From assembly GCF_017447225.1 (NCBI RefSeq), contig NZ_JAFSNZ010000036.1:1-51819 (forward strand): DNA of 51,819 nucleotides, read 5' to 3'. A model generated the notes under the pieces. It was given only the letters and a program-made list of their open reading frames with translations. It was not told where the DNA came from and searched no databases. A program made the position numbers and the translations under genes. Positions 30,854 through 51,819 of the stretch are shown one piece after another; position 1 is the first letter of the stretch; each line of letters opens with the position of its first letter. Source of the DNA: Methanobrevibacter sp. Its GTDB lineage: Archaea > Methanobacteriota > Methanobacteria > Methanobacteriales > Methanobacteriaceae.

Positions 30854-30877
30854 TTACTTTTCAAATGCTCTATGCAA
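30854..30877 (+). promoter_or_regulatory. 24-base element upstream of mcm, also found upstream of the MutS-like gene
   Basis: The core TTCAAATGCTCTA is preceded by TTACT plus one variable base and followed by one variable base plus GCAA. The same 24 positions occur at 47670-47693 with 22 identities, in the same orientation and also just upstream of a TATA-like box. It ends 35 bases before the mcm start codon. Confidence 0.45.
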
Positions 30878-30912: not shown

Positions 30913-32919
30913 ATGAAATCTACTACTAAATCACAAACATTAATTACAAAATTTGAAGAATTTTTTGCAACTTCATATAAGGATGATGTGTTTGAAATTC
31001 TTGAAACGTACCCGGATAACAGATCGCTGACCGTGGATTATAATATTTTGGAAGTATTCGATCCAGACTTGGCGGATTTGTTGGTTGAAAAACCTGAAGA
31101 GGTTATTGAAGCGGCACAAATAGCTGTTAAAAATATTGACCCTCTGGCGAAAGATGCTGATTTAAACATTCGTTTTAAAAATCTGACCAATATTATACCA
31201 TTAAAGATACTGTTAAGTAAATATATCGGAACATTCGTTGCTGCGGAAGGAATCGTTAGGAAAACAGATGAGATAAGGCCACGTATTGAAACTGCAGTCT
31301 TTGAATGTAGGGGATGTATGCGTCTTCACGAAGTTGAGCAAACTTCCGACAGAACAATATTGGAGCCTTCATTATGTGGAGAATGCGGAGGAAGGTCTTT
31401 CAGACTGCTTCAGGAAGAATCTCATTATATCGATACTCAAACCGCAAGAATGCAGGAACCTTTAGAGAATTTATCCGGAGGAACCGAACCTAAACAAATG
31501 TTAATGATTTTGGAAGATGATTTAGTAGATGAATTAAATCCAGGGGACAAAGTAAGAATTACTGGTACTTTAAAAACATTTAGGGAGGAGCGAAGCGGAA
31601 AATTCAAAAATTACATTTATGTAAATCATATCGAACCTTTAGAACAGGAATTTGAAGAGCTTCACCTTTCAGAAGAGGATGAGGAAGAAATCCTGGAATT
31701 GTCAAAAGATCCCAATATCTATGAAAAGATAATCAAATCAACTGCACCATCAATCAGAGGATATCGTGATGTAAAAGAAGCTATCGCATTGCAGTTATTC
31801 GGTGGATCTGCAAAGCAATTGGAAGATGAAACCAGATTAAGGGGAGATATTCACATCCTTATTGTTGGGGACCCTGGTATCGGTAAGTCCCAGATTCTTA
31901 AATACGTTTCCAAACTGGCTCCGAGAAGCATATATACCAGTGGTAAAGGTACCACAGGAGCAGGTCTGACTGCAGCGGCTGTAAGAGACGAACTAGGTGG
32001 ATGGTCACTGGAAGCAGGTGCATTGGTTTTAGGAGACCAGGGTAACGTATGTGTTGACGAACTGGACAAGATGAGGTCTGAAGACCGTTCAGCACTTCAC
32101 GAAGCTTTAGAACAACAGACCGTAAGTATTGCAAAAGCAGGTATTATGGCAACTTTAAATTCGAGATGTTCTGTGCTTGCTGCTGCAAACCCTAAATTCG
32201 GAAGATTTGACAGATTCAAAGTACTGGCTGATCAGATTGAATTGCCACCCCCAATTCTATCCCGTTTTGATTTGATTTTTGTCGTTGAAGACAAACCAAG
32301 CAGAAAAGGGGATTCAGAATTGGCTCAGCACATTCTTAATATTCACCAGTCAAATACTGTTGATTATGAAATCGAACCAGATTTACTTAGAAAATACATC
32401 GCATATGCACGTAAAAACGTCAATCCCGTTTTAAGTGATGAAGCAAATGAAGTATTGAAAAATTTCTATGTGGATACGAGAAACAGCAGCGGCAATACTG
32501 AAGAAAACTCCGTTGTTCCAATTACTGCAAGACAACTTGAAGCTATTATTCGTTTAGCAGAAGCCTGTGCCAAAATGAAATTAAAAGAAGTTGTTGACAA
32601 AGAAGATGCTAAAAAAGCAGTCAGATTGCAGATGGCATGTCTCAAGGAAGTCGGAGTTGATCCAGAAACTGGTGAGCTTGAAGCTGACATCGTTGGCGGA
32701 GGAAGACCTAAATCTGAGAGAGACAAAATGGGTGTTATAGTTGACGAAGTAAAATTGCTTGAAGAAGAATATAACGGCCAGGCCCCTGTTAATGTTTTAA
32801 AGAACAATATGGAAGAAAAACATGATGTGAGTGAGGATAAAGTCGAAAATCTCATTAGAAACCTAACGCAACGTGGAATCTTATACGAACCAGGTGCAGG
32901 ATATGTGAAAAGAGTTTAA
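30913..32919 (+). CDS. mcm: Replicative helicase MCM
   Basis: 668-residue hexameric 3'-5' DNA helicase. The N-terminal domain has an OB fold and a zinc motif (C132, C135, C155, C158). The AAA+ domain has Walker [10 protein letters not shown] (319-327), Walker [10 protein letters not shown] (379-387), sensor 1 in LAAANPKFG and the arginine finger LSRFDLIF. A winged-helix domain closes the protein (about 600-668). No intein or insertion is seen. It is divergent from vapBC with a 116-base region that holds the vapB operator and the 24-base element. Confidence 0.97.
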
Positions 32920-36738: not shown

Positions 36739-38124
36739 ATGAAACGATTTACTAAAATGGAATATGATAATCCAGACGAAATGGTTTTTGGTTTTGCAAA
36801 ACACCCTGTAAAAACAAAGTATGATATCGAAATCGGTGCAGGATATGTCAATCCAATTATCAAAGTAGCTCCTAAAGAAGGCAGTGAAAAGTCAATGGAA
36901 AGTATGGTTGCAGAATGTAAAAATATTGCCATCAGCGCATGTCAAAGAGCATTGAATATAGGTTTGCCTTCTTTCATAATAGAACAGGAACACATTGCTC
37001 AACAGACTGCAAATCCCGAATGGGCAGGCGCCTGTACGCAGGCACAAGTCGAAGTGCTTGAAAAATTCCATGACGAATATGGGATAAAAGTAGCGCTTAA
37101 AGCAACCCCTGCAGATATTAGGGATGAAGAAAAGGGATCAGACTACAGAACATCACAGCAATATCAAAATGTAATGGAATCTGTAGAACAGTGCTGTGAA
37201 AATGGCGCATCAATAATCTGTATTGAAACAACGGGAGGAAAATCCGTTTCAGATTATGGAATATCAAGAGGAGATCCAAGAGCAATTCTCTTTGGTATTG
37301 GAGTATTGGGAAGTATCGATATGGAATTTATGTGGGAGGAAATTGTTAAAATATGTAACAAACACAATGTGATTCCTGGAGGAGATACGAACTGTTCACA
37401 ATCAAATACAGCAATGTTTTTGGCAGGAGGATTGCTTGATAAAGACTGTTCACATACATTGGCAGCGATAGCTAGAGGTATTGGTGCAGGAAACAGTTTA
37501 GTTGCTGTAGAATGCGGTGCAAAAGGACCTCTTAAAGATTGTGGATATGAAAATCCTATTGTTAAAGCAATAAGTGGAGTGCCAATTGCAACCGAAGGTA
37601 AAAATGCTGTGTGCGCACATTCAGATTTGATGGGTAACCTGATTGCCGGAATATGTGACTGCTGGAGTAATGAATCCGTTTATCACAGGGAAGAAATGGG
37701 TGGAACAACACCAGAAGTTTGGCTGCAGGCTACCGGATTTGAAGCTTCATTAATGAACACCGCAATCCAAACCGGTGAAGAAAAAACTCTAAGAGATTTA
37801 TACACATTAACAGACAAATACAGAGATCCACAGGCATTAATCTTAGCATATGACAACGCATACAGAATAGGTCAGGCCATTGTTGAACATGGTGAAGACC
37901 CATATCAAAGAAGTATCGCAGCGGCTCTGGAAGTCGGAGCAATAATTCAGGAAGCAGTAGATTCTAAAAAGATGCAATTGACCAGATTTGAACAGGACAG
38001 CCTGGACAGTGCAATGAGAACATTCAGAAAATTGCCAGAAGACTCTGCCAAATTCATAAAACGTAGCGTAAGAAGATATGGTCGTAAAGTTGAAGATTTC
38101 GACCCTAAAAACTATGAATTATAA
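36739..38124 (+). CDS. mtaB: Methanol:corrinoid methyltransferase
   Basis: 461 residues, full length. It cleaves the C-O bond of methanol and transfers the methyl to the cob(I)amide of MtaC. Zinc ligands known from Methanosarcina barkeri MtaB (E164, C220, C269) are matched here, shifted by one, at E163 (IICIETTGG), C219 (GGDTNCSQSN) and C268 (LKDCGYENP). The TIM-barrel continues to the end with no stop. It heads the operon mtaB-mtaC-activase-mtaA on the plus strand, with its own TATA box and ribosome binding site. Confidence 0.97.
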   Translation: MKRFTKMEYDNPDEMVFGFAKHPVKTKYDIEIGAGYVNPIIKVAPKEGSEKSMESMVAECKNIAISACQRALNIGLPSFIIEQEHIAQQTANPEWAGACTQAQVEVLEKFHDEYGIKVALKATPADIRDEEKGSDYRTSQQYQNVMESVEQCCENGASIICIETTGGKSVSDYGISRGDPRAILFGIGVLGSIDMEFMWEEIVKICNKHNVIPGGDTNCSQSNTAMFLAGGLLDKDCSHTLAAIARGIGAGNSLVAVECGAKGPLKDCGYENPIVKAISGVPIATEGKNAVCAHSDLMGNLIAGICDCWSNESVYHREEMGGTTPEVWLQATGFEASLMNTAIQTGEEKTLRDLYTLTDKYRDPQALILAYDNAYRIGQAIVEHGEDPYQRSIAAALEVGAIIQEAVDSKKMQLTRFEQDSLDSAMRTFRKLPEDSAKFIKRSVRRYGRKVEDFDPKNYEL

Positions 38125-38137
38125 ATGAGGGATTGAA

Positions 38138-38965
38138 ATGAGTTATAAAGATTTAGAAGATAAAATTAACCAAGAAAAAATATCTGTCAGATATAATGTC
38201 GTTGCTGAAGGTGCAGCAATGAAAGCAGAAGATTATCCTGAAGTTAAAGAAATCCTTCCAACAGACGAACCATTCAGAAAAATTGCATTGGAAATATTAT
38301 ATGAAGATAAAATCAATGCACTGAAAGACGTTAAAAAATCACTTGATGATGGTGTTTCACCAATTGAATTAATTAACAACGGTTTGATGAAAGGAATTGA
38401 TGCTGTAAGTACACTATACACCAAAGGAGTTTATTTCTTACCTGATTTAATGCTTGCCGGAGATGCTATGATGGAAAGTGTTAAAGAATGTGAAAAGGTT
38501 CTAGGACGTAAAAGCGATACTAAAGGAACAGTGGTCTGTTTTGTGGCTGAAGGAGACCCTCACGATATCGGTAAAAACTTGATTTTAATGTTTTTAAGAG
38601 CTGGAGGATATGAAGCTATAGACTTAGGTCGTGACGTTCCTGCCCAAAGAGTCGTTGAAGCAGTAAAAGAACACAATCCGTTATTCATGACAGGAACTGC
38701 CCTTATGACCACAACAATGACTGCATTTCCAAAAGTTGTTGAAGCACTTGAAGAAGCAGGTCTTGAAGTTCCTGCTATCGGATGCGGCGGTGGAGCAGTC
38801 CGTAAAGATTATGTGGAAACCATGCCTATGACCGTTTACGGTGTAGAAGCATATCACACTCCAAAACTAGCTGATGCAATATTAAATGACAACAAAAACT
38901 GGGAAGATTTAAGAAAAGAATACAGTGACGTTGTCGGCGAATTCGTATCAGAATATGCGAGTTAA
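38138..38965 (+). CDS. mtaC: Methanol corrinoid protein
   Basis: 275 residues. The corrinoid protein that carries the methyl between MtaB and MtaA. After an N-terminal helical cap (about residues 40-125) comes a Rossmann-like B12 domain with the base-off motif D140-x-H142-x-x-G145 in EGDPHDIGKNL, so H142 is the lower cobalt ligand. Further B12 contacts are in MTGTALMTTTM and CGGGAV. It is 13 bases after mtaB with GAGGGATT as ribosome site. Confidence 0.97.
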   Translation: MSYKDLEDKINQEKISVRYNVVAEGAAMKAEDYPEVKEILPTDEPFRKIALEILYEDKINALKDVKKSLDDGVSPIELINNGLMKGIDAVSTLYTKGVYFLPDLMLAGDAMMESVKECEKVLGRKSDTKGTVVCFVAEGDPHDIGKNLILMFLRAGGYEAIDLGRDVPAQRVVEAVKEHNPLFMTGTALMTTTMTAFPKVVEALEEAGLEVPAIGCGGGAVRKDYVETMPMTVYGVEAYHTPKLADAILNDNKNWEDLRKEYSDVVGEFVSEYAS

Positions 38966-38970
38966 ATAAA

Positions 38971-40566
38971 ATGAATGAAGAATTTGGGATAGCTATAGAT
39001 ATTGGAACAAGCGGTATTCGAGCACAAAGTTATGATTTAAATACCAATAAAACAATATCTACAGCAATAACCTTAAGACATCCCTTGCCGGGAGCCAATG
39101 TTGTCGATCATCTTCATTTCGCACTGGAAATTGGGGTTGATGAAGCACACACATTATTGATGAGAGCTATAAACAAAGTTATCTCCAATTTGGATATTGA
39201 AAATATTAGAAAGATTGCCGTATGCGGAAATCCCATACAGTTATCTCTATTCAACAATATTGAAATTAGGGATTTGGCTTTTTGGGGTGAAAATGCTTTA
39301 AAGGAACAGAACATAACTCCACCATCCAGAAAATCAAAGGTTATCAAATCATCCGAAATCGGATTGGATGCTGGTGATGATGTTGATGTTTACATCCCCC
39401 CTGCGATAAAGCATGAAATCGGTGCTGATGCATTGGCAATGCTTTACAAATCTGATGCCTTAAACAAAAATGAAGATTCATTGATTATTGACTTTGGAAC
39501 CAATGCCGAAATGGCGCTTATTGTTGAAGGTGAAGTTTACACCGCTTCTGCAGCTGCAGGCCCTGCAATTGAAGGACAGACAATAGAAAAAGGCAGACTG
39601 GCTTCCCCAAATACAATTTGTGATATCGAAAAGGAAAATGAATACTGGAGAATGAAAATTCTTGACGATGAGTTATTTACCTGTGATGGTGACCTGATTA
39701 ATCCAAAAACGGGAGAAGTAATTGAAAAAGGCGTTTTTGAAGCAAAAGGAATTACCGGAACCGGTGTTATAGCTGCATTCAGCTTAGCCATAGATGACGG
39801 ATTAATGAATAATGATAAAATTTATCTGCAAGATGATGTTTATCTAACAAAAGATGACATTTCAAATATTGGAAAGGCACTTGGGGCTTTTAGAGCTGGA
39901 GAGTTAACCTTAGCTGAAAGTTCTGATATTTACCTGGACGAAATTGACTCTGTTTATATGGCTGGTGCATCCGGTTTTTATGTGGATGCTAAAAAATCAT
40001 TGAAAATCGGACAGATTCCCCCATCTTCAGCAGAAATATATCAAATTGGAAATACTTCCCTTGCAATGGCAAAGGATATTGTTTTAAACCCAAAATTACT
40101 TGATGAATTGCAGGAAATAGCTGATAATATTGAAAGCAACCATATTATGCTTGCAACATCAGAAATATTCGAGAAAATATATTCACTTGAATTAGCAATG
40201 TATGAACAAGGAATGCCGTTTTCAACATATAAACAATGGCTTTTAAAATATGGCTTTCAGGATCTTCCACCAATTGAAGAAAACCCGGAAATTCATAAAC
40301 TGTTCGAAAGAGACATTGCAGACAGTGGCGAAAATCCAATAAAAACTGTTGATATTTCAAATACAATGACAACACAATTTGATAATTGTATTTACTGTAT
40401 GGAATGTGTAAATAACTGCCCTGAAAATGCATTATCCTTAGATGGAGAAAAATTTAACCTGAGAAGTGATTTATGCTCAGGACTCGGCTGTTTAAGATGC
40501 GTTAGAAACTGCATGCAAAATGCATTCAAATACAATCAATTTTATGAAAAAAGTGATGACTTATGA
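38971..40566 (+). CDS. Corrinoid reductive activase (RamA/MapA family)
   Basis: 531 residues. An ATP-dependent enzyme that reduces inactive Co(II) corrinoid of MtaC to Co(I). The N-terminal part is an ASKHA-type ATPase (AIDIGTSGIRAQ; DFGTNAEMAL; MAGASGFYVDAKK), matching COG3894/DUF4445. The last 70 residues hold two four-cysteine clusters of ferredoxin type (CIYCMECVNNCP and CSGLGCLRCVRNC), as in Methanosarcina RamA. It lies between mtaC and mtaA and overlaps mtaA by four bases (ATGA), which points to dedicated service of the methanol system. Confidence 0.92.
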   Translation: MNEEFGIAIDIGTSGIRAQSYDLNTNKTISTAITLRHPLPGANVVDHLHFALEIGVDEAHTLLMRAINKVISNLDIENIRKIAVCGNPIQLSLFNNIEIRDLAFWGENALKEQNITPPSRKSKVIKSSEIGLDAGDDVDVYIPPAIKHEIGADALAMLYKSDALNKNEDSLIIDFGTNAEMALIVEGEVYTASAAAGPAIEGQTIEKGRLASPNTICDIEKENEYWRMKILDDELFTCDGDLINPKTGEVIEKGVFEAKGITGTGVIAAFSLAIDDGLMNNDKIYLQDDVYLTKDDISNIGKALGAFRAGELTLAESSDIYLDEIDSVYMAGASGFYVDAKKSLKIGQIPPSSAEIYQIGNTSLAMAKDIVLNPKLLDELQEIADNIESNHIMLATSEIFEKIYSLELAMYEQGMPFSTYKQWLLKYGFQDLPPIEENPEIHKLFERDIADSGENPIKTVDISNTMTTQFDNCIYCMECVNNCPENALSLDGEKFNLRSDLCSGLGCLRCVRNCMQNAFKYNQFYEKSDDL

Positions 40567-41570
40567 ATTATAAAGAAAACCTTAAAAAAGCACTTACTGG
40601 TGAAAAAGTAGATGCAAAACCAATAGTTAGTGTGACACAACTCGGAACTATTGATGCAATGAACCAAAATAACATTTCATGGCCAGAGGCCCATAAAGAT
40701 GCTAATCAAATGGCTACATTAGCCAGTTCATTATATGAACTTGCAGGACTTGAATGTGCAAGGCTGCCATTTTGTCTGACTGTAGAGGCTGAAGCACTGG
40801 GCTGTGATGTGAATTTGGGAAACAATGAAAGAGTGCCTGAAGTTGAAATTACACCATTTGAATATGCGGATGATATTGAAGCACCTAATGATTTTCTTAA
40901 AAGAGGAAGGATACCTGTAGTTTTAGAAGCAATTGATATTTTAAAAGAAAAATATGATGAATTGCCTATAATTGTCGGTATTACAGGACCATTCACATTA
41001 ACAGGACACTTGCTGGGAATTGAAAACCTTGTAAGATACATGAAAACGGATGTTGAAGAAGTTGAAATAGCTGTTGAAAACTGTGTTGATGTGAGCATGG
41101 ATTATATAGAAGCTATTCAGGACCATGGAGCGGATGTCATATGTGTCAATGAACCTACTGCATCTCCAGAGTTGATTGCGCCAAATGACTTTAAATCATT
41201 GGTCAAACCAAACCTAGAAGATCTGGCAGATTATATTGAAATTTTAAAGGTTCTGCATATCTGCGGGTCTACACAACCGATAATAAAAGATATGGCCACA
41301 TGCGGTTTTGATGGAATCAGTGTTGAAGAAGCCGTCGACATTCCTCAAGCCCAACAGGAAATTGCAGATATTGATTGCGTTATTTTAGGAAATATCTCAA
41401 CATCAAAAACATTGTTAAGCGGCAATGCAGATGATGTTAAAAATGATGTGAAAAAAGCAATTGATGATGGAATAGACATATTAGCGCCAAGTTGCGGAAT
41501 TGCACCAAACACTCCACTAGACAACATTAAAGCAGCAATTGCAGAGCGAAATGAATATTTCAATCTTTAA
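40563..41570 (+). CDS. mtaA: Methylcobamide:coenzyme M methyltransferase
   Basis: 335 residues of the uroporphyrinogen decarboxylase fold. It moves the methyl from MtaC to coenzyme M, forming methyl-CoM for methyl-coenzyme M reductase. The zinc ligands H232 and C234 (LHICGST) and C311 (APSCGIAP) are all present. The name mtaA rests on linkage to mtaB and mtaC; MtbA-like specificity for methylamines is less likely. It overlaps the activase gene by 4 bases. Its end overlaps the convergent unknown gene at 41560. Confidence 0.93.
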   Translation: MNYKENLKKALTGEKVDAKPIVSVTQLGTIDAMNQNNISWPEAHKDANQMATLASSLYELAGLECARLPFCLTVEAEALGCDVNLGNNERVPEVEITPFEYADDIEAPNDFLKRGRIPVVLEAIDILKEKYDELPIIVGITGPFTLTGHLLGIENLVRYMKTDVEEVEIAVENCVDVSMDYIEAIQDHGADVICVNEPTASPELIAPNDFKSLVKPNLEDLADYIEILKVLHICGSTQPIIKDMATCGFDGISVEEAVDIPQAQQEIADIDCVILGNISTSKTLLSGNADDVKNDVKKAIDDGIDILAPSCGIAPNTPLDNIKAAIAERNEYFNL

Positions 41571-42115: not shown

Positions 42116-42694
42116 CTACCTAACACAATCAGGACACAATCCCACTTTTGATGCGACAGCCTTTTTAATATCTGAAGAAACTTTATTGATTCCATTATTG
42201 GCATTGATTATTTCATGTTCAAAGTTTTCAGCCAATTTTAAATAGTTTTCTCTAACACCAGTCAAAAATTCTTCATTTTCAAATGTATCCTCGCCGGAAG
42301 TTCTTGCAACAGATGTTTTAACATCCAAATCCAGTAAAATTAATAAATCAGGCTTTTTAGCATACTTATTTAGAATAGCTATCCACTCAGCAGGTTCCTG
42401 ATAGGCAAGTGACGAAATAAATGATCTGTCGGATATGATAACCTTTTTTTCATCTTCCAGTTTATCCATTATCAGCATCCTATCCGCTGCAAAAAGCAAT
42501 CCCAATGTTTTTTGAACTCTGTCTGTTGTTGCATCTGGCCTTTGTAAGATTTTTCTAATTAATTTACCGACTTCTGAATCAGTTGGTTCAACCAAAGTCT
42601 CGACTTCAAGACCATTAGCCTCTAACCATTCCTTTAACATTTGAATTTGAGTGGATTTTCCCGCACCGTCAATTCCTTCAAAAACAATATACAT
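42116..42694 (-). CDS. tmk: Thymidylate kinase
   Basis: 192 residues. It phosphorylates dTMP to dTDP for DNA synthesis. The P-loop FEGIDGAGKSTQ is residues 5-16. The DR(Y/S/H) motif is DRSFISSLAYQEP near residue 89. The LID segment is RTSGEDTFENEEF with arginine. It is the first gene of a unit with the unknown gene 41560-42108. The final three cysteines, CPDC-type at the C-terminus (GLCPDC), form a possible extra metal site not found in all homologues. Confidence 0.95.
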   Translation of the reverse strand: MYIVFEGIDGAGKSTQIQMLKEWLEANGLEVETLVEPTDSEVGKLIRKILQRPDATTDRVQKTLGLLFAADRMLIMDKLEDEKKVIISDRSFISSLAYQEPAEWIAILNKYAKKPDLLILLDLDVKTSVARTSGEDTFENEEFLTGVRENYLKLAENFEHEIINANNGINKVSSDIKKAVASKVGLCPDCVR

Positions 42695-42814: not shown

Positions 42815-45307
42815 ATGCATTTACAAGAATTATTGGCTCCGGCAGGTTCTTATGACGTGCTTGTTATTGCAGTCAATGCAGGTGCTGATGCAGTTTATAT
42901 TGCAGGACAAAATTATGGTGCTAGAGCTTTTGCTAAAAATTTTACAATGGAAGAAATCGAAAAGGCAGTTACTTATGCTCACTTAAATAACGCCAAAGTC
43001 CATGTCACAGTCAATACATTAATCAATAACTTTGAGATTATTAACGTTCTAGATTATCTATTCAAACTATACCAGATTGGCGTTGATGCAGTTATCGTTC
43101 AGGATTTTGGAATTATTCAGCTTTTAAAGAAATTAATGCCTGATTTGGAAGTCCATGCATCCACACAAATGGCATTGAGCAATTATTCTGCAATCAGATG
43201 GGCTTATGACAACAACATCAAAAGAATTGTTCTTCCAAGAGAAAAATCAATTGAAGAAATCGAAATGATCCACAGCCAGATTGAAAAAGATGATATTGAC
43301 TTGGAACTGGAAGTTTTCGGTCATGGAGCGCTATGTTATTGCGTTTCCGGAAATTGCTATATGTCCTCATACAATAGCGGAAGAAGCGGAAATAGGGGAG
43401 CTTGTGCACAGCCATGCAGACGGGAATACCGTCTGAAATACAGAGGATATAATGTGGGAAACGGATTTCTGTTATCAACACATGACCTTGCAACATACAA
43501 TAATCTGGATGCTATTTCAAAAGCGGGAGTTACATCCCTCAAACTGGAAGGCAGAATGAAATCTGGAGACTATATAGGAACCATTGTCAACAGCTACAGG
43601 AATATAATCGATGGAAATCCCGGTGACTGGCAAAAAGATTTACACCTTGTTTTTAACAGAAGATTCACCAATGGATACATCATGAATGATAAGCCTGGTC
43701 AGGTAATGGGAAGAGGCAGTTCCGGTCATGAAGGATTATATATAGGAGATATAACCAATATTGACGGAACCAAAGTAACGATTGAAATAAAAAACAAAGA
43801 AATTCCTGTTATTCTTGAAAAAGGAGATGGAATAGCATTTAAGTACAACGGCAAAATCAAAGGAATCTATCTTGAAAACATCATCAAACAGGATGAAAAT
43901 GAAATCATCATTGATACGACACGTCTTGTAAAGGTAGGAACTGAAGTGTTTATCAGCTATTCTGCAAAAACCCATGAAAGCCTAAAGCAGTTTAAAAACG
44001 AAACAGTAAAAAACAATATACCAATTAATGTGACATTCAATTTCCAGAAAGACCTGACAGCAAACATTAAAGTCGAATATTATCTTGATGATGAACTGAT
44101 TAATTTCAGATACAAAGGAATTGCAAGATTCGAAAAGGCCAAAAACCGTCCAATAACAAAAGAGTCAATTATTAAACAGCTTGAAAAAACAGGCGGAACA
44201 TCATTTTACATGGAAAAAATCAGATTCAATGACATGCCAGAGGATTTATTCATTCCGATAAGCGGATTGAATAAAATCAGAAGAGAAATTCTTGATAAAG
44301 CTGAAGAATTATTATTAAATCATTATACTCCAACCAAAAAGTCAATAAAATCAACTAGAAAAAAATTGGAAGAATTCAAAAACAATTATGAATCTTATGA
44401 AAATAAGACCAATAAAAAAGCAAAACTGTCCCTTTTTGCCAATGATTTAAATCAGATTAGAGCGGCAAACGGTTTTAATTTGAAAAGAATATATCTTGAT
44501 GTGAATTGCCTGTACAATAACCCTGAGGATTACTACGAAAACATTGAAGATATCTTAAAAGAGGCAATACGAATTGCACCTGAAATTGAAATTGTTTGGG
44601 TTTTATCATCATTTATAAATGAATTTGAATTAATAAAAGCAAAAAACATTATAAAAGAATTGGAAGCAGAAGGATACTTAATTTCAGTCATGGTTGACTC
44701 ACCGGGAGCAGAAAAGATATTTGACTGTCCTGTATATGGAAACCATAATCTTAATGTATGGAACTCATTTACTGTGGAAAATCTGTCAAAATATAACGGA
44801 CTGATATTGTCCTGTGAACTTTCCGGACGTGAAATTAAAGAAATAACCCATAAAAATTACATTAAAAATACCGATTTGGAAATGATTGTCCACGGCAACC
44901 TGGAAGTTATTGTGAGTCGTGACGACTTTTCAAACCTAAACGATGGAAGAGATTTCATCATAGGAAATAATGCGGAATATGCAACATTGGAAGATAAGAA
45001 AAGGAAAAAATTCAAATATAAAGTATTCTTTGACTATAATCGCCAAAGCCATATCCTGAATAAGGATTGCTTATGTTTGATTGAAGAGATGAATGAAATA
45101 AAAACTTTGAATTTGGATAATCTTATTGTTGACTGCAGATATTCAACAGAAGAGTATACCAAAAATATATTGGCAATCTATAATGATAGTTTGGGCGATA
45201 TTTCACAGGAAAAGCTGAATGAATTTAAATACGAGATAATGGACTTTTCACAGTCATACATTAATAAAGGAAATTATATTGAAGGAAGATTACATGAGGA
45301 TACCTGA
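42815..45307 (+). CDS. U32 family protein, long form, first of a tandem pair
   Basis: 830 residues. The U32 name implies a peptidase, but characterised members (RlhA, TrhP, UbiU/UbiV) are iron-sulfur proteins in hydroxylation of RNA or quinone precursors. The TIM-barrel core begins LQELLAPAGSYD. A cluster motif is formed by C174, C181, C197 and C201 (GALCYCVSGNC then ACAQPC), plus C176. The C-terminal half has the collagenase-like DUF3656 region and a helical tail. It is longer than E. coli RlhA (about 650). It is coupled to the second U32 gene by a 14-base overlap. Confidence 0.87.
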   Translation: MHLQELLAPAGSYDVLVIAVNAGADAVYIAGQNYGARAFAKNFTMEEIEKAVTYAHLNNAKVHVTVNTLINNFEIINVLDYLFKLYQIGVDAVIVQDFGIIQLLKKLMPDLEVHASTQMALSNYSAIRWAYDNNIKRIVLPREKSIEEIEMIHSQIEKDDIDLELEVFGHGALCYCVSGNCYMSSYNSGRSGNRGACAQPCRREYRLKYRGYNVGNGFLLSTHDLATYNNLDAISKAGVTSLKLEGRMKSGDYIGTIVNSYRNIIDGNPGDWQKDLHLVFNRRFTNGYIMNDKPGQVMGRGSSGHEGLYIGDITNIDGTKVTIEIKNKEIPVILEKGDGIAFKYNGKIKGIYLENIIKQDENEIIIDTTRLVKVGTEVFISYSAKTHESLKQFKNETVKNNIPINVTFNFQKDLTANIKVEYYLDDELINFRYKGIARFEKAKNRPITKESIIKQLEKTGGTSFYMEKIRFNDMPEDLFIPISGLNKIRREILDKAEELLLNHYTPTKKSIKSTRKKLEEFKNNYESYENKTNKKAKLSLFANDLNQIRAANGFNLKRIYLDVNCLYNNPEDYYENIEDILKEAIRIAPEIEIVWVLSSFINEFELIKAKNIIKELEAEGYLISVMVDSPGAEKIFDCPVYGNHNLNVWNSFTVENLSKYNGLILSCELSGREIKEITHKNYIKNTDLEMIVHGNLEVIVSRDDFSNLNDGRDFIIGNNAEYATLEDKKRKKFKYKVFFDYNRQSHILNKDCLCLIEEMNEIKTLNLDNLIVDCRYSTEEYTKNILAIYNDSLGDISQEKLNEFKYEIMDFSQSYINKGNYIEGRLHEDT

Positions 45308-47663
45308 GTTACTTGCCCCTGTCGGATCCATGGAACATTTAAAGATTGCAATTAATGCAGGTGCTAGTTCCGTTTACTTGTCTGGAAAAAACTATGGTGC
45401 AAGAAAGTATGCTGAAAACTTCACATTAGATGAAATACGTGAAGCAGTGCACATTGCACACCTGCACAATGTACGAGTTTATGTAACCGTAAATACATTA
45501 ATTAAACAAATGGAACTGGAAAATGCACTTAATTATTTGAATGAGTTATATGCAATAGGCGTGGATGCTGTTCTGGTTCAGGATTTAGGCCTCATTGAAC
45601 TGATTAATAAATATCTGCCGAAGCTGAAAATTCATGCCTCAACACAGTTTACCTGCGAAAATCAAAAGAAAATTGATTATCTTGAAAGCAAAAATGTCAA
45701 AAGAGTTGTTCTTCCACGTGAAATGAGAAAAGAAGAAATAAAAAACTTAAAAACAAATATGGAACTTGAAATATTTGCTCATGGAGCATTATGCTATTCA
45801 TATTCAGGACAATGTTTGATGAGCAGTTTCAAAGGTGGAAGAAGCGGGAACAGAGGAACATGCGCCCAACCATGCAGGCAAAAATACAGATTATCAAATA
45901 ATAAAAAGAAAGATTATTATTTATCTCCAAAAGATTTATGCTTATATGAAGAACTGAAAGAAATCAGCGAGTTGAATATCAGATGCATTAAGATTGAAGG
46001 AAGAATGCGTTCCAAAGAATACTTAGCCATCGTCATAAGCAGTTACAGAAAAGCATTGAACAAACTAAAAAGTAACAAAATCACCAATACTGAAAATCTT
46101 AATTTAGTATTCAACAGAGGATTTACCAAAGGCCAGTTTATGAATTCCTACAAAAGAAGCATCAGATCAGGGCATTTGGGATTAAGAATCGGTAAGGTCA
46201 TAGACAGTAAAAATTCACAGATTGCCATTAGAATCGATGACAATATAAATACTATACCGGACAAGGGGGATGGATTGTTAATTGTTAAAAATAACAATGA
46301 CTATGGAATGGAAATTTCGCAAAATCCGATAATTACAACATTGAATCATTTTAATAAAAATAAATTAAAGTCTATTAAGGATTTAACAAGAAAAGACAAG
46401 GTTATGATTATCAAAAAAGTCAGACAGAACAAAAAAATTAACTTCAATCTAACCGGTTCGACAGTTTATCTGACAAAAAGAAATTCATTGAATAAGTTAG
46501 TAAAAGAAATTGAAAACAAGACTTCCAGCTATATAAAATCAAAGCTAATATTGACATTTTCTTTAAAGAACAAATATCCTCATCTAAAAGGACGCTTAAC
46601 TCTTGCAAACCGTAGGGAAGTTACTTATGAAGTGACTGGAACAAGCAAATTTGAAACACCTTTGAAAAGAAATGTTGATGCAAAAAGCATTGAAAAGCAA
46701 TTATCCAAACTGGATAATTACCCATATCAGATTACCCAAATCAATATGAACTATGACGGCAGCCTGTTTATTCCGATTAAGGAAATTAATAAAATTAGAA
46801 GAGAGTTATTTGAAGGATTGGCTGAAGAAGTAAATAAATTATACGAAAATAAAAAAGAAAAAATTGATTACAATCAAAATCAATTGAAAAGAACTGACGA
46901 ACTTTCACTATCATATTATACAAACAATATTGAGGAATTATCTGAAATTACTGGTGTTAAAAGAGTTTATTTGGAAATTCCGCCAAAAAACAGTATTAAT
47001 TTCATGGTTAATTTCCTGAAAAAGGCTGTTGAAATAAGTTATCCAAAAGATTATGAATTAATCTGGAAATGGCCAGATATCGCTCATGATGAACTAATTA
47101 AATCCCTAAATAAAGTTAGAGGAATTTTAAATAAGATGGGACTAAAAATAGACATCATGTCCAATGACTTTAAAGGAGATTATGGACCATATTCGATGAA
47201 TATAAGCAATACCGAATCAATTAATGCATTGAAAGATTATAAACTAGCCACTTTATCACCAGAACTTACAAAACCCGATTATGAAGACATTATCAGACAC
47301 TGCGAAGATAATTCAAAAATTGAAATTCTAGTTCAGGGATGTATTGAACTTATGAAAACAAGATATGGATTTAAAGAAAAAATTGACAATGCAAAGTTAA
47401 TTGATTCTAAAAACAACATTTATCCAATACATAAAAGTTTATCTGAAGAAGAACTGATTATTTTCAATAGTGAAGACTTATCATTAATTGACGAAATAGA
47501 CTACCTGAAATCAATAGGCTATGTTAATTTTTCAATAGATGGTCGCTTTAAAGACAATGATTACTTCAAATTAATAGAAGTTTATGATAAAGCATTGAAT
47601 GGCGAAATTAATAAAAAAGATGTTTTAAAATATTCGCCAAAAACCACAAAAGGAAATTTCTAA
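45294..47663 (+). CDS. U32 family protein, long form, second of a tandem pair
   Basis: 789 residues, a paralogue of the preceding protein through its whole length (PELLAPVGSMEHLKIAINAG; GALCYSYSGQC; GTCAQPCRQKYRL). The four cluster cysteines are retained, but the extra one of the first copy is serine here. I chose the ATG at 45294, which has GGAAG upstream and begins MRIPELLAPV; an ATG at 45279 adds five residues. It overlaps the first U32 gene by 14 bases, so the two are made together and may form a heterodimer like UbiU-UbiV; this is inference. Confidence 0.87.
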   Translation: MRIPELLAPVGSMEHLKIAINAGASSVYLSGKNYGARKYAENFTLDEIREAVHIAHLHNVRVYVTVNTLIKQMELENALNYLNELYAIGVDAVLVQDLGLIELINKYLPKLKIHASTQFTCENQKKIDYLESKNVKRVVLPREMRKEEIKNLKTNMELEIFAHGALCYSYSGQCLMSSFKGGRSGNRGTCAQPCRQKYRLSNNKKKDYYLSPKDLCLYEELKEISELNIRCIKIEGRMRSKEYLAIVISSYRKALNKLKSNKITNTENLNLVFNRGFTKGQFMNSYKRSIRSGHLGLRIGKVIDSKNSQIAIRIDDNINTIPDKGDGLLIVKNNNDYGMEISQNPIITTLNHFNKNKLKSIKDLTRKDKVMIIKKVRQNKKINFNLTGSTVYLTKRNSLNKLVKEIENKTSSYIKSKLILTFSLKNKYPHLKGRLTLANRREVTYEVTGTSKFETPLKRNVDAKSIEKQLSKLDNYPYQITQINMNYDGSLFIPIKEINKIRRELFEGLAEEVNKLYENKKEKIDYNQNQLKRTDELSLSYYTNNIEELSEITGVKRVYLEIPPKNSINFMVNFLKKAVEISYPKDYELIWKWPDIAHDELIKSLNKVRGILNKMGLKIDIMSNDFKGDYGPYSMNISNTESINALKDYKLATLSPELTKPDYEDIIRHCEDNSKIEILVQGCIELMKTRYGFKEKIDNAKLIDSKNNIYPIHKSLSEEELIIFNSEDLSLIDEIDYLKSIGYVNFSIDGRFKDNDYFKLIEVYDKALNGEINKKDVLKYSPKTTKGNF

Positions 47664-47669
47664 AAAATA

Positions 47670-47693
47670 TTACTGTTCAAATGCTCTAGGCAA
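47670..47693 (+). promoter_or_regulatory. 24-base element upstream of the MutS-like gene
   Basis: Second copy of the element at 30854-30877 (22 of 24 identical), in the same orientation. Here it is followed by AATTATATATTAAG, a TATA box at about 47699-47709, and by the gene start at 47742. It lies 6 bases after the end of the second U32 gene. Confidence 0.45.
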
Positions 47694-47741
47694 ATTCTAA
47701 TTATATATTAAGTTAATAATAACATTAAGGGTTTGGTTAAA

Positions 47742-49667
47742 ATGGAAGGAGAATTACAAACATTGCAAGAAATAAAAGGAATCGGAGATAAAATCTCTGA
47801 AAAAATAATTAGAAGTGTTGGGGGAGAAGAAGAACTCCAGAAAATAATTGATGAAGTTGATGTAGAAAGAATAATTGAGATAGACGGAATAAGTCAGAGA
47901 AAAGCAATTACCATCATGCATCAGTTATTGAATAATGACAATTACGAATTTATGAAAAGCGACAGGGCAATTGAAATTTATGAAGACATCATAAACAAGA
48001 TATTGGCATACTCCAATACATCATATTCAAAAAACAGAATTCTTCTCTTAACACCATCCAAAGATTTGAATAAAATCAAAAAACAGGTAAAATTCATAAT
48101 GGATGCTAAAAATGCAGTATCCCAAATGCCAATTATCAAATTAAGAGGATTAATGAAAAACTTGAAAGAGCTTGAAGAGCCAAAAGCAGAATATGATGCA
48201 AGTAAAGTCATCTTAGTTGAAAGCGAAGAGGACAATTCATATCTATGTGATTTAGGCCTTAACCAATACTACCCCATTTTAACCGCAAGCGATTCTCCAT
48301 TACTCAAAGAGGAATTGATGAATTATGATTTAATATTTTACGTTTATTCCCAGGCAATTCTCGATTTTGAAGGAATGCCAAATTTAGTTATGATCAATAT
48401 TGATGAAAATGACTATGAAATCGTTCCCGAAAAAATAATCAACTTCTTTATCCAAAACCAGGAGACATTTCAAAGAGTTCATGAAATTCAAAAAATCAGA
48501 AACAAGGAAAGTGTTTTGGGAGATATAATTCCAATAATTGATGAGTTGAACATCGTTGAGAAAAAAGAAGTTGATTTGGACGAACTTGTTAATTCATTGA
48601 AATATGAGATGGATGAAGAATTAGAAAAATCCATAAAAAATATTGACCTTGAAGGAGATGAAATTCTCAACTTATTAAACAACAACTTCCCACCAAAAAT
48701 AAGCAAAATATTTGATGATATTATAAGTAAACGTAAGGAAATCATCAAGGAAAAAACTGGGCTGGATTTTGATCCATACCTCAGAAAATATCCTATTGAA
48801 ATTGACGAACAGGAAGTTGAAAGAGTAAAACTTGAAAGATCATCCAAAAAAGAGAATGATATCTTCGATATTAAGAAAAGCGCGGCAATACAACTCAATT
48901 CAATTAAGCAAAGAGCTATAGAGGAAGTTGAAGATGTAATTAAGTTCGATTATGAATTCTCACTCGGAAGCTTTGCATATGAATATGAATTAGTGGAACC
49001 CGAATTCACCAATGACATTAAACTGAAAGGAGCGCTTCACTTAGATTTATCCCTTAAAAAGGATGAAGACCACATTCAAAAAATTGATTATGAACTGAAT
49101 GAACAGGAAAATATTGCGCTTCTAACCGGAGCAAACAGTGGTGGTAAAACTACACTGCTTGAAACATTAACCCAAATTTCAATCATGGCACAAATGGGTC
49201 TTCCTGTAAGTGCTGATGAGTGCGAAATCAAATTGTTTGATGAAATCTATCACTTCTCCAAAAAGAGATCACTTGATGCAGGAGCATTTGAATCATTCCT
49301 AAATGTATTCATACCAATTGTTACAACAAACAGTGAAAAATTAGTATTGTTGGATGAACTTGAAGGAATAACAGAGCTTGAAGCGGCCGTTAAAATCATT
49401 TCCACATTTATTGACATGATAAAGGAATCAAATTCCTACGGAATAATAGTAACCCACATGGCAAGAGAACTGATGAATTATACGGAGGTCCGGGTCGATG
49501 GAATAGAAGCTAAAGGATTGGATGAAGATTACAATTTAATCGTTGACAGAACTCCAAAAATGAATTTCCTTGCTAAAAGTACTCCTGAGTTGATTTTGAA
49601 AAGAATATATGAAAAATCTGATGATGATTTAAAGATAGTGTATGCAAGAATTTTAGAAAAATTCTAA
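47742..49667 (+). CDS. MutS-type ATPase with helix-hairpin-helix start
   Basis: 641 residues. The first 65 form two helix-hairpin-helix motifs (LQEIKGIGDKISEKI and IIEIDGISQRKAITI), a DNA-binding unit. The middle is helical and poorly conserved. The C-terminal part is a MutS-family ABC ATPase: Walker A TGANSGGKTT (about 462-471), the Q-loop region, signature-type LDAGAFESF, Walker B LVLLDELEG and the switch histidine in VTHMA. There is no mismatch-recognition domain I and no Smr nuclease, as in the archaeal MutS2-related group. I chose ATG 47742 after AAGGGT; a TTG three codons earlier is possible. Confidence 0.82.
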   Translation: MEGELQTLQEIKGIGDKISEKIIRSVGGEEELQKIIDEVDVERIIEIDGISQRKAITIMHQLLNNDNYEFMKSDRAIEIYEDIINKILAYSNTSYSKNRILLLTPSKDLNKIKKQVKFIMDAKNAVSQMPIIKLRGLMKNLKELEEPKAEYDASKVILVESEEDNSYLCDLGLNQYYPILTASDSPLLKEELMNYDLIFYVYSQAILDFEGMPNLVMINIDENDYEIVPEKIINFFIQNQETFQRVHEIQKIRNKESVLGDIIPIIDELNIVEKKEVDLDELVNSLKYEMDEELEKSIKNIDLEGDEILNLLNNNFPPKISKIFDDIISKRKEIIKEKTGLDFDPYLRKYPIEIDEQEVERVKLERSSKKENDIFDIKKSAAIQLNSIKQRAIEEVEDVIKFDYEFSLGSFAYEYELVEPEFTNDIKLKGALHLDLSLKKDEDHIQKIDYELNEQENIALLTGANSGGKTTLLETLTQISIMAQMGLPVSADECEIKLFDEIYHFSKKRSLDAGAFESFLNVFIPIVTTNSEKLVLLDELEGITELEAAVKIISTFIDMIKESNSYGIIVTHMARELMNYTEVRVDGIEAKGLDEDYNLIVDRTPKMNFLAKSTPELILKRIYEKSDDDLKIVYARILEKF

Positions 49668-49695
49668 ATACTACATTACACAAAATTTTTTATTG

Positions 49696-51351
49696 ATGAA
49701 AATAACTTCCAACACAAAAAATCCAGATATTCAGAGAATAAATCAGATTTACCAGGTGCTTAAAAAGAATGATTTTGGATATTTGATTGAAGAAAACACT
49801 TTTTTTAAGACATTTCCTTTTCTTAGAAATAGAAAAAGAGAAAAAGAAGAGAATTTTCCTGATGAAACAATACCAATAAGAATTAGAAAAGTGCTTGAAG
49901 ATTTGGGGCCGGCATACATAAAATTAGGCCAAATGTTATCTACAAGACCAGATTTAGTGGGTTTGGAAATATCTGAAGAACTTCAAAAATTAAGGGATAA
50001 CACCCCCGTTGTCGATTTTGAAAAAATTAAAGAGTTAATTGAAGAGGAATTAGGTCAGAACATAGAGGACATTTATACTGACCTAAACGAAACTCCAATC
50101 GGTTCAGCATCTATTGGTCAGGTTTATACTGCTGTTTTAAAAGAAAATGGAGAAAAAGTAGCCATTAAAGTACAAAAACCAAATAGTGAGGAAATTGTTA
50201 AAACAGACATTAAAATCATGAAATTTTTAGCCGTGAGAATTGATAAATTCATCAGCAAAACAAAAGTTTACAATTTGCCCGCAATCGTTTCTGAATTTGA
50301 AAGATCCATATTAAAAGAAATAAATTACCTGGAAGAAGTAAGAAATATGGAAGTTATCCAATCTAATTTTAAGAATGTCCCTTATGTACATATTCCTAAA
50401 GTTTATGATGATTACTGTTCGGGAAAAATAATTACAATGGAATTGGTTAAAGGAGAAGAACTGAGCAAAGTAATTGAAGATGACTCTAAAAAATACAACA
50501 AGAAATTAATAGCAAAAAGAGGAACAAATTCATTTTTCAAACAGATTATGCTTGACGGATTTTTCCATGCTGACCCCCATCCCGGAAACATATTCGTAAT
50601 GGAAGGCAATAAAATCTGTTACATTGATATGGGAATGATGGGAATACTGAGCGATGATTTTAAAGAAAATCTAGCAGAATTAATTATTCTTTTAATTAAC
50701 GGAAATGCTGACAATATCATTAATCAATTAATTTATATGGACATAATTACGCCATCACAGAATACTCCAGAGCTTAAAGAGGACATTAATGATTTAATGA
50801 AAAAATACTATGGAACAAAGCTTAAAAACATCAATGGAAGTATTGAAGATTTGCTGAACACCATGATTAAACATAATGTATCATTACCTAGGGAGTTTGT
50901 AATGCTTGCAAGAGGATTGGCTCTGGTTGAGGAAAGCGGTAAAAAACTGGATCCTGACTTTGATACAGCTAAAGAGTTGAAAAGATTATCCAAAAAAATA
51001 TTGGCTCAAAAAGTATCGCCAAACAGATTAATAAAAATCGGTTCAAATTATCTTCTGGAAATGGGACATTTAGCCAAAGGACTGCCGACAACAGTGAACA
51101 ATACATTATCCAAATTGGAAGCGGGCGATATTACATTAAAATTAAAGATTGAAGGAATCAGTGAAATATCCAAACAGTTAACAACAGCAATAATTATAGC
51201 GGCGCTGATTGTGGGTTCGTCACTTGCACTATTTGCAGACAAAGGACCGACAATAATTGATATTCCAGTTTTGGGATTAATCGGCTTTTTAATAAGCTTT
51301 GCATTGGGAGTCTATCTTGTAGCCCAATACATAATGTTTAACATGGACTGA
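49696..51351 (+). CDS. AarF/UbiB (ABC1) family kinase-like protein
   Basis: 551 residues. An atypical kinase with the UbiB features: the KxGQ-type motif at LGPAYIKLGQMLSTRPD, the alanine-type loop SASIGQVYTA in place of a glycine-rich loop, the invariant lysine in VAIKVQKP, the ExD-like EINYLEE, the catalytic HADPHPGN and metal-binding IDMGMMG. Two C-terminal membrane helices (about 495-513 and 522-545) anchor it. Bacterial UbiB supports quinone synthesis by a lipid-extraction ATPase activity; this methanogen has no ubiquinone, so its lipid substrate is unknown. The start is ATG 49696. Confidence 0.9.
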   Translation: MKITSNTKNPDIQRINQIYQVLKKNDFGYLIEENTFFKTFPFLRNRKREKEENFPDETIPIRIRKVLEDLGPAYIKLGQMLSTRPDLVGLEISEELQKLRDNTPVVDFEKIKELIEEELGQNIEDIYTDLNETPIGSASIGQVYTAVLKENGEKVAIKVQKPNSEEIVKTDIKIMKFLAVRIDKFISKTKVYNLPAIVSEFERSILKEINYLEEVRNMEVIQSNFKNVPYVHIPKVYDDYCSGKIITMELVKGEELSKVIEDDSKKYNKKLIAKRGTNSFFKQIMLDGFFHADPHPGNIFVMEGNKICYIDMGMMGILSDDFKENLAELIILLINGNADNIINQLIYMDIITPSQNTPELKEDINDLMKKYYGTKLKNINGSIEDLLNTMIKHNVSLPREFVMLARGLALVEESGKKLDPDFDTAKELKRLSKKILAQKVSPNRLIKIGSNYLLEMGHLAKGLPTTVNNTLSKLEAGDITLKLKIEGISEISKQLTTAIIIAALIVGSSLALFADKGPTIIDIPVLGLIGFLISFALGVYLVAQYIMFNMD

Positions 51352-51624: not shown

Positions 51625-51710
51625 TTTTCATCCTCCTTTTAACTTTTTTGATAAGATATTAACATTTCTACTTTTAAAAATATATAAATTATACAGTTTA
51701 TGAATATACA

Positions 51711-51819
51711 TGACCGCTGAATAGATCAGCGCAACCACTGCCTGCACCAGCAGCATCGAAATGACCGGCATCCCTCCGGGCACAAAGAGATGCTGCAGCC
51801 AGTTCAGTGCCATGGTCAG
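51711..51819. other. GC-rich foreign-looking segment at the window end
   Basis: The last 109 bases contain 63 G or C (58 percent), against roughly 20 percent in the 100 bases before. On the minus strand they encode an uninterrupted hydrophobic stretch (ALNWLQHLFVPGGMP, then an alanine- and valine-rich helix) with GC-rich codon ends, resembling the inside of a bacterial membrane transporter gene. The reading frame then runs into the promoter of the small membrane gene. A chimeric assembly end is the simplest explanation. Confidence 0.6.

Follow-up and report, generated by a model that had tools for sequence, protein, structure and literature searches.

RlhA (YdcP) of Escherichia coli, the synthase of 5-hydroxycytidine at position 2501 of 23S ribosomal RNA (ho5C2501 of 23S rRNA), consists of a U32 barrel with the cysteine spacing CX6CX15CX3C and a catalytic Glu, followed by a DUF3656 domain, and its residues E161, C169 and C176 are described as needed for ho5C2501 (PMC6599085). 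Most U32 families are described as carrying CX6CX15CX3/4C, [4Fe-4S] clusters are proposed for them, and RlhA1 and RlhA2 are given as two domains within one protein (PMC6747719). Other relatives are TrhP (YegQ), which makes the wobble 5-hydroxyuridine (ho5U) of transfer RNA (tRNA), and the quinone-modifying UbiU-UbiV, whose reported cysteine spacings are CX6CX16CX38C or CXnCX12CX3C. Here we compare these systems with a locus in a 51,819-base stretch of DNA, hereafter the window, which is the entire contig (G000:C25) of an incomplete 2.16 Mb Methanobrevibacter-like genome from a gut methanogen. Two U32 genes, U32a and U32b, stand there ahead of genes for a MutS-type ATPase and a UbiB/ABC1 kinase, and the MutS-type gene is preceded by a 17-bp promoter element, TACTnnTCAAATGCTCT.

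The MutS-type protein and its element have described counterparts, too. MutS2, bacterial MutS and archaeal MutS5 have the MutS core and ATPase in common with the window protein, and for MutS5 of Pyrococcus, binding to Holliday junctions is described (PMC11276520). The UV-responsive promoter hexamer of Sulfolobus acidocaldarius (PMC5817253) resembles the element in being an archaeal motif upstream of the core promoter elements of DNA-damage genes; the window element, however, is 17 bp long, has another sequence, occurs in another phylum and stands before the repair and replication genes themselves. For the locus as a whole, the explanation that we consider probable is a pair of RlhA-type paralogues, a separately promoted MutS-type ATPase of DNA repair and an unrelated UbiB, and the element of the MutS-type gene is the most interesting lead.

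Results

Architecture and Catalytic Residues of the U32 Proteins

The initial annotation of the window had placed here two overlapping paralogous U32 genes with four cluster cysteines each, a MutS-type gene and a UbiB gene, all in one direction, and the four genes are indeed present, intact, adjacent and on the plus strand. For U32b, we prefer the start ATG 45294, with a GAAGGA-like ribosome site ahead of it, over the listed TTG 45279; the overlap with U32a is then 14 nt. Above the curated Pfam cut-offs, both U32 proteins match PF01136 in two stretches and PF12392 (DUF3656), the MutS-type protein matches MutS_V and UbiB matches ABC1. In the same database, E. coli RlhA is PF01136 plus PF12392, TrhP is PF01136 plus PF16325, and UbiU and UbiV are PF01136 alone. 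The second PF01136 stretch, an RlhA2-like domain, is found in both U32a and U32b; E. coli RlhA itself gave one stretch.

The cysteines, spaced C-x6-C-x15-C-x3-C in both proteins, lie within the motif E-x7-C-x6-C-x15-C-x3-C, preserved without exception in the 28 U32b and 25 full-length U32a proteins of the named relative loci (in our labels, L stands for loci, G for genomes, g for genera and f for families). These 28 loci are all Methanobrevibacter, the nearest by MutS-type protein being L048 of M. millerae at 96%; the U32a row of L038, a cross-hit to U32b, was left uncounted, and a full U32a is missing from L045, owing to a frame break, and from L050, where the contig end truncates it. E161, C169 and C176 of RlhA align with the invariant E159, C167 and C174 of U32b. 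The four motif cysteines are the sole invariant ones in a 23-row alignment of relatives, and thus the second U32-like domain has none conserved. The extra cysteine said to distinguish the paralogues is real, as a CYC in U32a, but not meaningful: several proteins of the U32b type have it, and several of the U32a type lack it. As both genes are intact and, in relatives, under purifying selection (with dS, the synonymous divergence, saturated and the ratios rough), the observation is not due to chance.

A structure model of U32b, built on 23 alignment rows, has a predicted local distance difference test score (pLDDT) of 85.1 and a predicted template modelling score (pTM) of 0.83. Its first barrel matches the U32 protein MK0906 (5d88; Z 16.9, 208 residues aligned, root-mean-square deviation 3.3), with CutC barrels following at Z 16.5; the match supports the predicted fold of this barrel, not its function, other TIM barrels being near. 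It was found by fold search only, a sequence search of the U32 proteins against solved structures giving no match.

As far as architecture and catalytic residues tell, U32a and U32b are RlhA-type proteins, and both kinds of evidence support the RNA hydroxylation like that of RlhA or TrhP which the initial annotation had listed as an alternative. In contrast to the E. coli enzyme of 653 amino acids (aa), they are 789–830 aa long, archaeal, two paralogues and very distant in sequence, and their target is a predicted one. TrhP has the U32 catalytic domain and residues in common with them; it has PF16325 and no DUF3656, whereas the window proteins do not match PF16325, and the NCBIfam TrhP score is 213 against a cut-off of 534. 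With UbiU (331 aa) and UbiV (292 aa) they have in common U32 barrels with four cysteines and the tandem arrangement, but those are single-domain proteins, and the CX6CX15CX3C of both U32a and U32b is neither of the UbiU-UbiV spacings. NCBIfam scores for UbiU and UbiV are 179 against 440 and 52 against 275 bits for U32a, and 176 and 39 bits for U32b. Membership in UbiU/UbiV was rejected on architecture, cysteine spacing and model scores; the proposal of a UbiU-UbiV-like heterodimer tied to UbiB and the quinone pathway finds no support in an RlhA architecture with scores so far below the cut-offs. The genome has a third U32 protein, of 415 aa and without DUF3656, on another contig (G000:C115:11564-12292).

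Distribution, Gene Order and Phylogeny of the U32 Copies

DUF3656 is found in 140 of 149 Methanobacteriales genomes and, across the phylum, in 89 of the 95 genomes of at least 90% completeness. The window's genus accounts for 66 genomes: 60 with two matches, four with a single one and two without any, the last six being 75–86% complete. Family f2 (g18), presumably Methanothermobacter-like, has exactly one match in each of its eight genomes, and none of the four genomes of family f3 has any.

Gene order was mapped on 40 genomic stretches. Over-long frames in G033, G024, G057 and G039 were taken as stretches of N, and the g5 U32b copies and the MutS-type frames of G057 and G039 were used for position only or excluded. 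A single U32 gene lies between tmk, on the opposite strand, and the MutS-type gene in g18, g6, g9, g16 and g17 (seven genomes), and about 4 kb from the MutS-type gene in the one genome of g14. The tandem U32a-U32b occupies the same place between tmk and the MutS-type gene in g1 and g4; in the two genomes of g2 the tandem is kept, with the MutS-type gene 1.7 kb off (G070) or about 8 kb off and inverted (G018). Elsewhere the copies are apart. In g3, one stands at the tmk side and the other at a distance of ~0.7 Mb (G020) or 1.5 Mb (G011) on complete chromosomes, of ~1.2 Mb on the same contig in G047, and on another contig in G021; in the complete G033 of g5 they are ~1.1 Mb apart, and in g12 and g13 on different contigs. 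Among the named Methanobrevibacter loci, U32a and U32b are adjacent in 28 of 28, with gaps of −14, −4 or −1 nt.

Trees were made of 49 rows and, without the short outgroup proteins, of 46 rows. Group A (19 rows) brings together U32a, the copies found unlinked and those standing alone in g8 and g15, and group B (26 rows) U32b, the syntenic copies and all single copies. The branch between them has a support of 99 in the 46-row tree (Shimodaira–Hasegawa-like approximate likelihood ratio test, SH-aLRT), and the 49-row tree has nearly the same split. The four syntenic copies of g3 sit with A on a long branch in the 49-row tree and with U32b once the short outgroups are removed; the root relative to E. 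coli RlhA is poorly placed (support 33 in the 46-row tree). Six genera have a B copy as their sole DUF3656 U32; the reverse, A without B, was seen in two draft genomes only (g8, g15). U32a is in tandem with U32b in three genera and unlinked in four (g3, g5, g12, g13). On this evidence, the copy found order-wide next to the MutS-type gene is U32b, U32a being an additional paralogue. In G065 of g13, the syntenic U32b (L092, 3957-6365; 803 aa) has a broken cysteine pattern; the A copy of the same genome is intact.

The gene order U32-U32-MutS-UbiB, which the initial annotation had singled out, is conserved in part: the U32 genes are adjacent throughout the named loci, and the arrangement is not unique to this genome, but the place of UbiB varies. 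As a linked pair across the order the two U32 genes did not hold up, since g3 and g5 have them far apart, g12 and g13 have them on different contigs, and six genera have B alone.

The Variable Place of UbiB

Of the 28 named loci, 23 have at least 600 bases after a complete MutS-type gene, or UbiB in view, the other five contigs being too short. UbiB follows the MutS-type gene directly in nine of these 23 (the copy in L045 is broken) and not in 14; in L036 it comes 1.6 kb further on. UbiB matches occur in 118 of 149 genomes, including the f3 genomes G006 and G009 without DUF3656, and there is no match in the near-complete genomes G005, G036 and G037 of the genus, which have the U32 pair. The window protein scores 254 against 22.9 bits for PF03109 and stays below the cut-off of the ubiquinone equivalog TIGR01982 (380 against 487.55); a second paralogue with 42% identity is on contig C46 of the same genome. 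UbiB is best taken as a kinase-like gene unrelated to the others, which only some members of the genus have in this downstream position, and a lipid modification with membrane-anchored UbiB, another alternative listed in the initial annotation, gets no support from a gene that follows directly in nine of 23 loci. The MutS-type gene is 78 nt behind U32b, with its own promoter-like sequence in between, and UbiB 28 nt behind the MutS-type gene; a single operon of the four genes was rejected on the promoter element and the patchy UbiB.

The MutS-Type ATPase and Its Promoter Element

The MutS-type gene is present in 136 of 149 Methanobacteriales genomes. Its product has the MutS core and ATPase, and its N-terminal helix-hairpin-helix, with helices at 4-62 in the model, scores 23.9 in the window protein, short of the Pfam cut-off of 27. 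MutS and MutS2 chains are tied in structural comparison (Z 21-25). Unlike MutS2, the protein has no Smr match at E 0.001 and scores 85 against 400 bits in the NCBIfam MutS2 model; unlike mismatch-repair MutS, it gave no N-terminal mismatch-binding domain and stayed under the NCBIfam cut-off.

The element, in the form TCAAATGCTCT and with at most one mismatch, stands 62-78 nt before the MutS-type start in 26 of the 28 named loci and is followed by a TATA-like stretch; within one mismatch, it is not before the MutS-type gene of L044 and L045. L046 has 1.9 kb between U32b and the MutS-type gene, and there the element accompanies the latter. Related forms precede this gene in g6 and g16; in g2, one of two genomes shows such a form clearly, and in g18 it is less distinct. 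No element was found before U32a, U32b or UbiB even at four mismatches, apart from one AT-rich U32a hit taken as chance. In the base table of 53 sites, the sites were selected by pattern, and only the downstream TATA register is independent.

A first guess, that the element is an Orc1/Cdc6 origin box, relied on a repeat that we take to be present in M. thermautotrophicus; it was rejected, there being no element cluster round the best Orc1/Cdc6 gene of each genome. One site does adjoin a second Orc1/Cdc6 paralogue, where it precedes a small open reading frame (ORF).

A Candidate Repair and Replication Regulon

Genome scans with TACTnnTCAAATGCTCT and two mismatches gave 45 sites in the window's own genome against five for a reversed-pattern control. 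In eleven other genomes of the genus, the sites and controls were 41/5, 26/3, 24/1, 31/5, 29/2, 19/1, 15/2, 28/3, 36/3, 32/3 and 41/5, and the element is thus enriched in 12 of 12 Methanobrevibacter genomes (15-45 sites against 1-5). Downstream genes were read for the 17 sites of G014 with at most one mismatch (16 fetched, plus the MutS-type promoter), for 20 sites and the MutS-type site of G027, and for part of G000 and G034.

By Pfam and NCBIfam, the element-bearing genes of G014 encode Top6B, a YdjM-like protein, Hjc, a superfamily 2 (SF2) helicase (DEAD, Helicase_C), an RPA-like OB-fold protein, a PfkB kinase, an integrase, UvrD, a DinG/XPD-like helicase and DUF763. The SF2 helicase we take to be of the Hef type, and others, going by sequence likeness, are presumably NrdD, a second DinG-like helicase, a small protein and a DUF4065-like protein. 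Two of the 16 fetched sites (L166, L161) have no ORF of at least 90 aa downstream. All 14 downstream ORFs of G014 have a homologue behind a G027 site (61-95% identity); G027 and G034 add UvrA, named by likeness, and G000 and G034 add MCM, for which the window protein scores 941.3 against a cut-off of 940 in the MCM model. From the element and its company, TACTnnTCAAATGCTCT looks like the mark of a candidate archaeal DNA-repair and replication regulon. The common element groups the MutS-type ATPase, as far as promoters tell, with proteins of DNA repair and recombination. Hjc also carries the element, and MutS5, a possible relative, is the archaeal protein described as a binder of Holliday junctions.

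At L161, the element is followed by a conserved ORF of ~56-64 aa (about 59) with one hydrophobic stretch, convergent to the second Orc1/Cdc6 gene. The arrangement recurs in G000, G027, G034 and G025 and, with one mismatch, in G010 of g18 (L161, L171, L136, L146, L139, L137); the near-match by the second Orc1/Cdc6 gene of a sister-family genome suggests an age beyond the family. SOS-induced small membrane proteins halt cell division in bacteria, and by analogy the small ORF is possibly a damage-induced membrane protein that might do the same.

Features of the Window

Table 1. Coordinates of the genes and promoter features discussed, in window positions
Feature	Position	Strand	Description
U32a	42815..45307	+	RlhA-type U32 protein by architecture, 830 aa; U32 barrel, DUF3656, second U32-like domain
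U32b	45294..47663	+	RlhA-type U32 protein by architecture, 789 aa; orthologue of the order-wide copy adjoining the MutS-type gene
MutS-type gene	47742..49667	+	MutS-type ATPase with N-terminal helix-hairpin-helix, 641 aa; start ATG 47742
UbiB	49696..51351	+	UbiB/ABC1 atypical kinase, 551 aa; start ATG 49696; place not conserved
tmk	42116..42694	-	dTMP kinase; conserved neighbour, divergent from U32a or, in other genera, from the single U32
Promoter element	47671..47687	+	TACTGTTCAAATGCTCT, exact match to TACTnnTCAAATGCTCT, of the MutS-type gene
TATA-like stretch	47701..47709	+	TTATATATT, 3' of the element; register kept in aligned spacers
Second element copy	30855..30871	+	Exact copy, upstream of MCM
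MCM	30913..32919	+	Replicative helicase, also element-bearing

Upstream on the same strand (36739-41570) lie what we take, from sequence, to be parts of a methanol:corrinoid methyltransferase-like system (MtaB, MtaC, a RamA-like activator, MtaA). The last ~110 bases (51712-51819) are GC-rich, at 54% for 51700-51799 compared with about 30%, and one minus-strand frame is open there; they gave no match in E. coli genomes or records and look like a chimeric contig end.

Discussion

The two window proteins are most plausibly explained as RNA-modifying enzymes: U32a and U32b are likeliest two prephenate-dependent [4Fe-4S] RNA hydroxylases, with a predicted target, and, if sequence is a guide, new representatives of the RlhA kind from a domain of life where it was not expected. 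Each would bind one [4Fe-4S] cluster via the four cysteines of its first barrel and, requiring prephenate but no O2, hydroxylate an RNA pyrimidine at C5, and the two groups would most likely serve two RNA positions, one being the equivalent of 23S rRNA C2501 and the other another site. One obligate heterodimer is less likely, and a single chain has two U32-like domains as it is. The genome has chorismate mutase and prephenate dehydratase; as these are near-universal in the control genomes (13 of 14 and 14 of 14, respectively), the evidence is permissive only.

A number of observations weigh against this picture. On the RNA side, ho5C is listed for Bacteria only in PMC7694415, which calls for its re-examination in other domains, and the branch of E. 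coli RlhA is very long (2.16 in the 49-row tree), weakening strict RlhA orthology. A typed 15-base pattern of the 23S C2501 region found no match in the metagenome-assembled genome of the window, where rRNA is perhaps missing, and is uninformative. The adjacency of U32a and U32b in all named loci suggests co-expression and would fit a heterodimer there, and U32b and the MutS-type gene adjoin in most genera examined, a possible functional tie despite the separate promoters. On the regulatory side, no element was seen by eye before the MutS-type gene in g3, g4, g5, g9, g11, g12, g14 and g17, and the PfkB kinase, the DUF4065-like protein and the small proteins carry the element with no known DNA role. 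So do insertion-sequence genes of G034 that are TnpB-like by likeness (L114, L116, L120, L189-L191), which look as if they had recruited the host regulon.

The foremost rival reading of the U32 genes is an obligate heterodimeric RNA hydroxylase, arranged like UbiU-UbiV for quinones and as the tandem yrrN-yrrO of Bacillus subtilis may be for tRNA: in Methanobrevibacter the genes are adjacent and overlap or nearly so, and tandem U32 pairs have described precedents. We think it unlikely for the order because B occurs without A in six genera and the copies are unlinked elsewhere, and the syntenic copy of g13 has lost its cysteine motif beside an intact second copy; two U32-like domains are, moreover, already present per chain. 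The overlap in Methanobrevibacter allows co-operation there. A pair of the UbiU-UbiV kind that hydroxylates a lipid or quinone-like molecule with UbiB would draw on the same superfamily, with O2-independent chemistry in the accounts of those proteins, and on a UbiB close by in the window; architecture and model scores are wrong for it, and with UbiB adjacent in a minority of loci, present in genomes without a DUF3656 U32 and missing from others with the U32 pair, it is very unlikely. That the proteins are peptidases ('collagenase'), as the family names have it, strikes us as extremely unlikely: the characterised relatives are described as hydroxylating enzymes, Fe-S clusters being reported for UbiU and UbiV, and both U32a and U32b retain the cluster motif.

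The neighbourhood could also be read from the MutS-type gene outwards, as a ribosome-quality locus in which this protein acts on ribosomes like MutS2/RqcU, next to rRNA-modifying U32 proteins. The top Foldseek match, MutS2 on a collided disome, and the persistent proximity of U32b and the MutS-type gene agree with that. Yet the MutS and MutS2 chains are tied, no Smr domain was found, and the promoter element is common to DNA-repair and replication genes, not the U32 genes, so that the regulon weakens the link; we regard this reading as improbable. As a component of the element's regulon, the MutS-type ATPase would be a protein of DNA repair or recombination with its own promoter under TACTnnTCAAATGCTCT.

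We lean towards a joint view in which TACTTTTCAAATGCTCT marks an SOS-like regulon of Methanobacteriales, with one regulator and ~15-40 promoters per Methanobrevibacter genome, among them those of Top6B, RPA, Hjc, a Hef-like helicase, UvrD, UvrA, MCM, NrdD, DinG-like helicases, the MutS-type ATPase and a small membrane protein, and in which archaeal RlhA paralogues extend RNA C5-hydroxylation. Euryarchaea are, to our knowledge, not known to have a coordinated sequence-specific DNA-damage regulon, and a literature search, with most subscription journals outside its scope, found no published report of the element. An element of 17 bp that stands before more than ten conserved genes of repair and replication would serve as bait for the regulator and provides a list of genes to watch after damage. 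For the U32 genes, the presence of the RlhA type in 140 of 149 Methanobacteriales genomes predicts that archaea hydroxylate RNA, and do so as strict anaerobes with no O2, and the two orthologue groups predict two RNA targets; if true, the archaeal paralogues of RlhA would make RNA C5-hydroxylation a trait of two domains of life.

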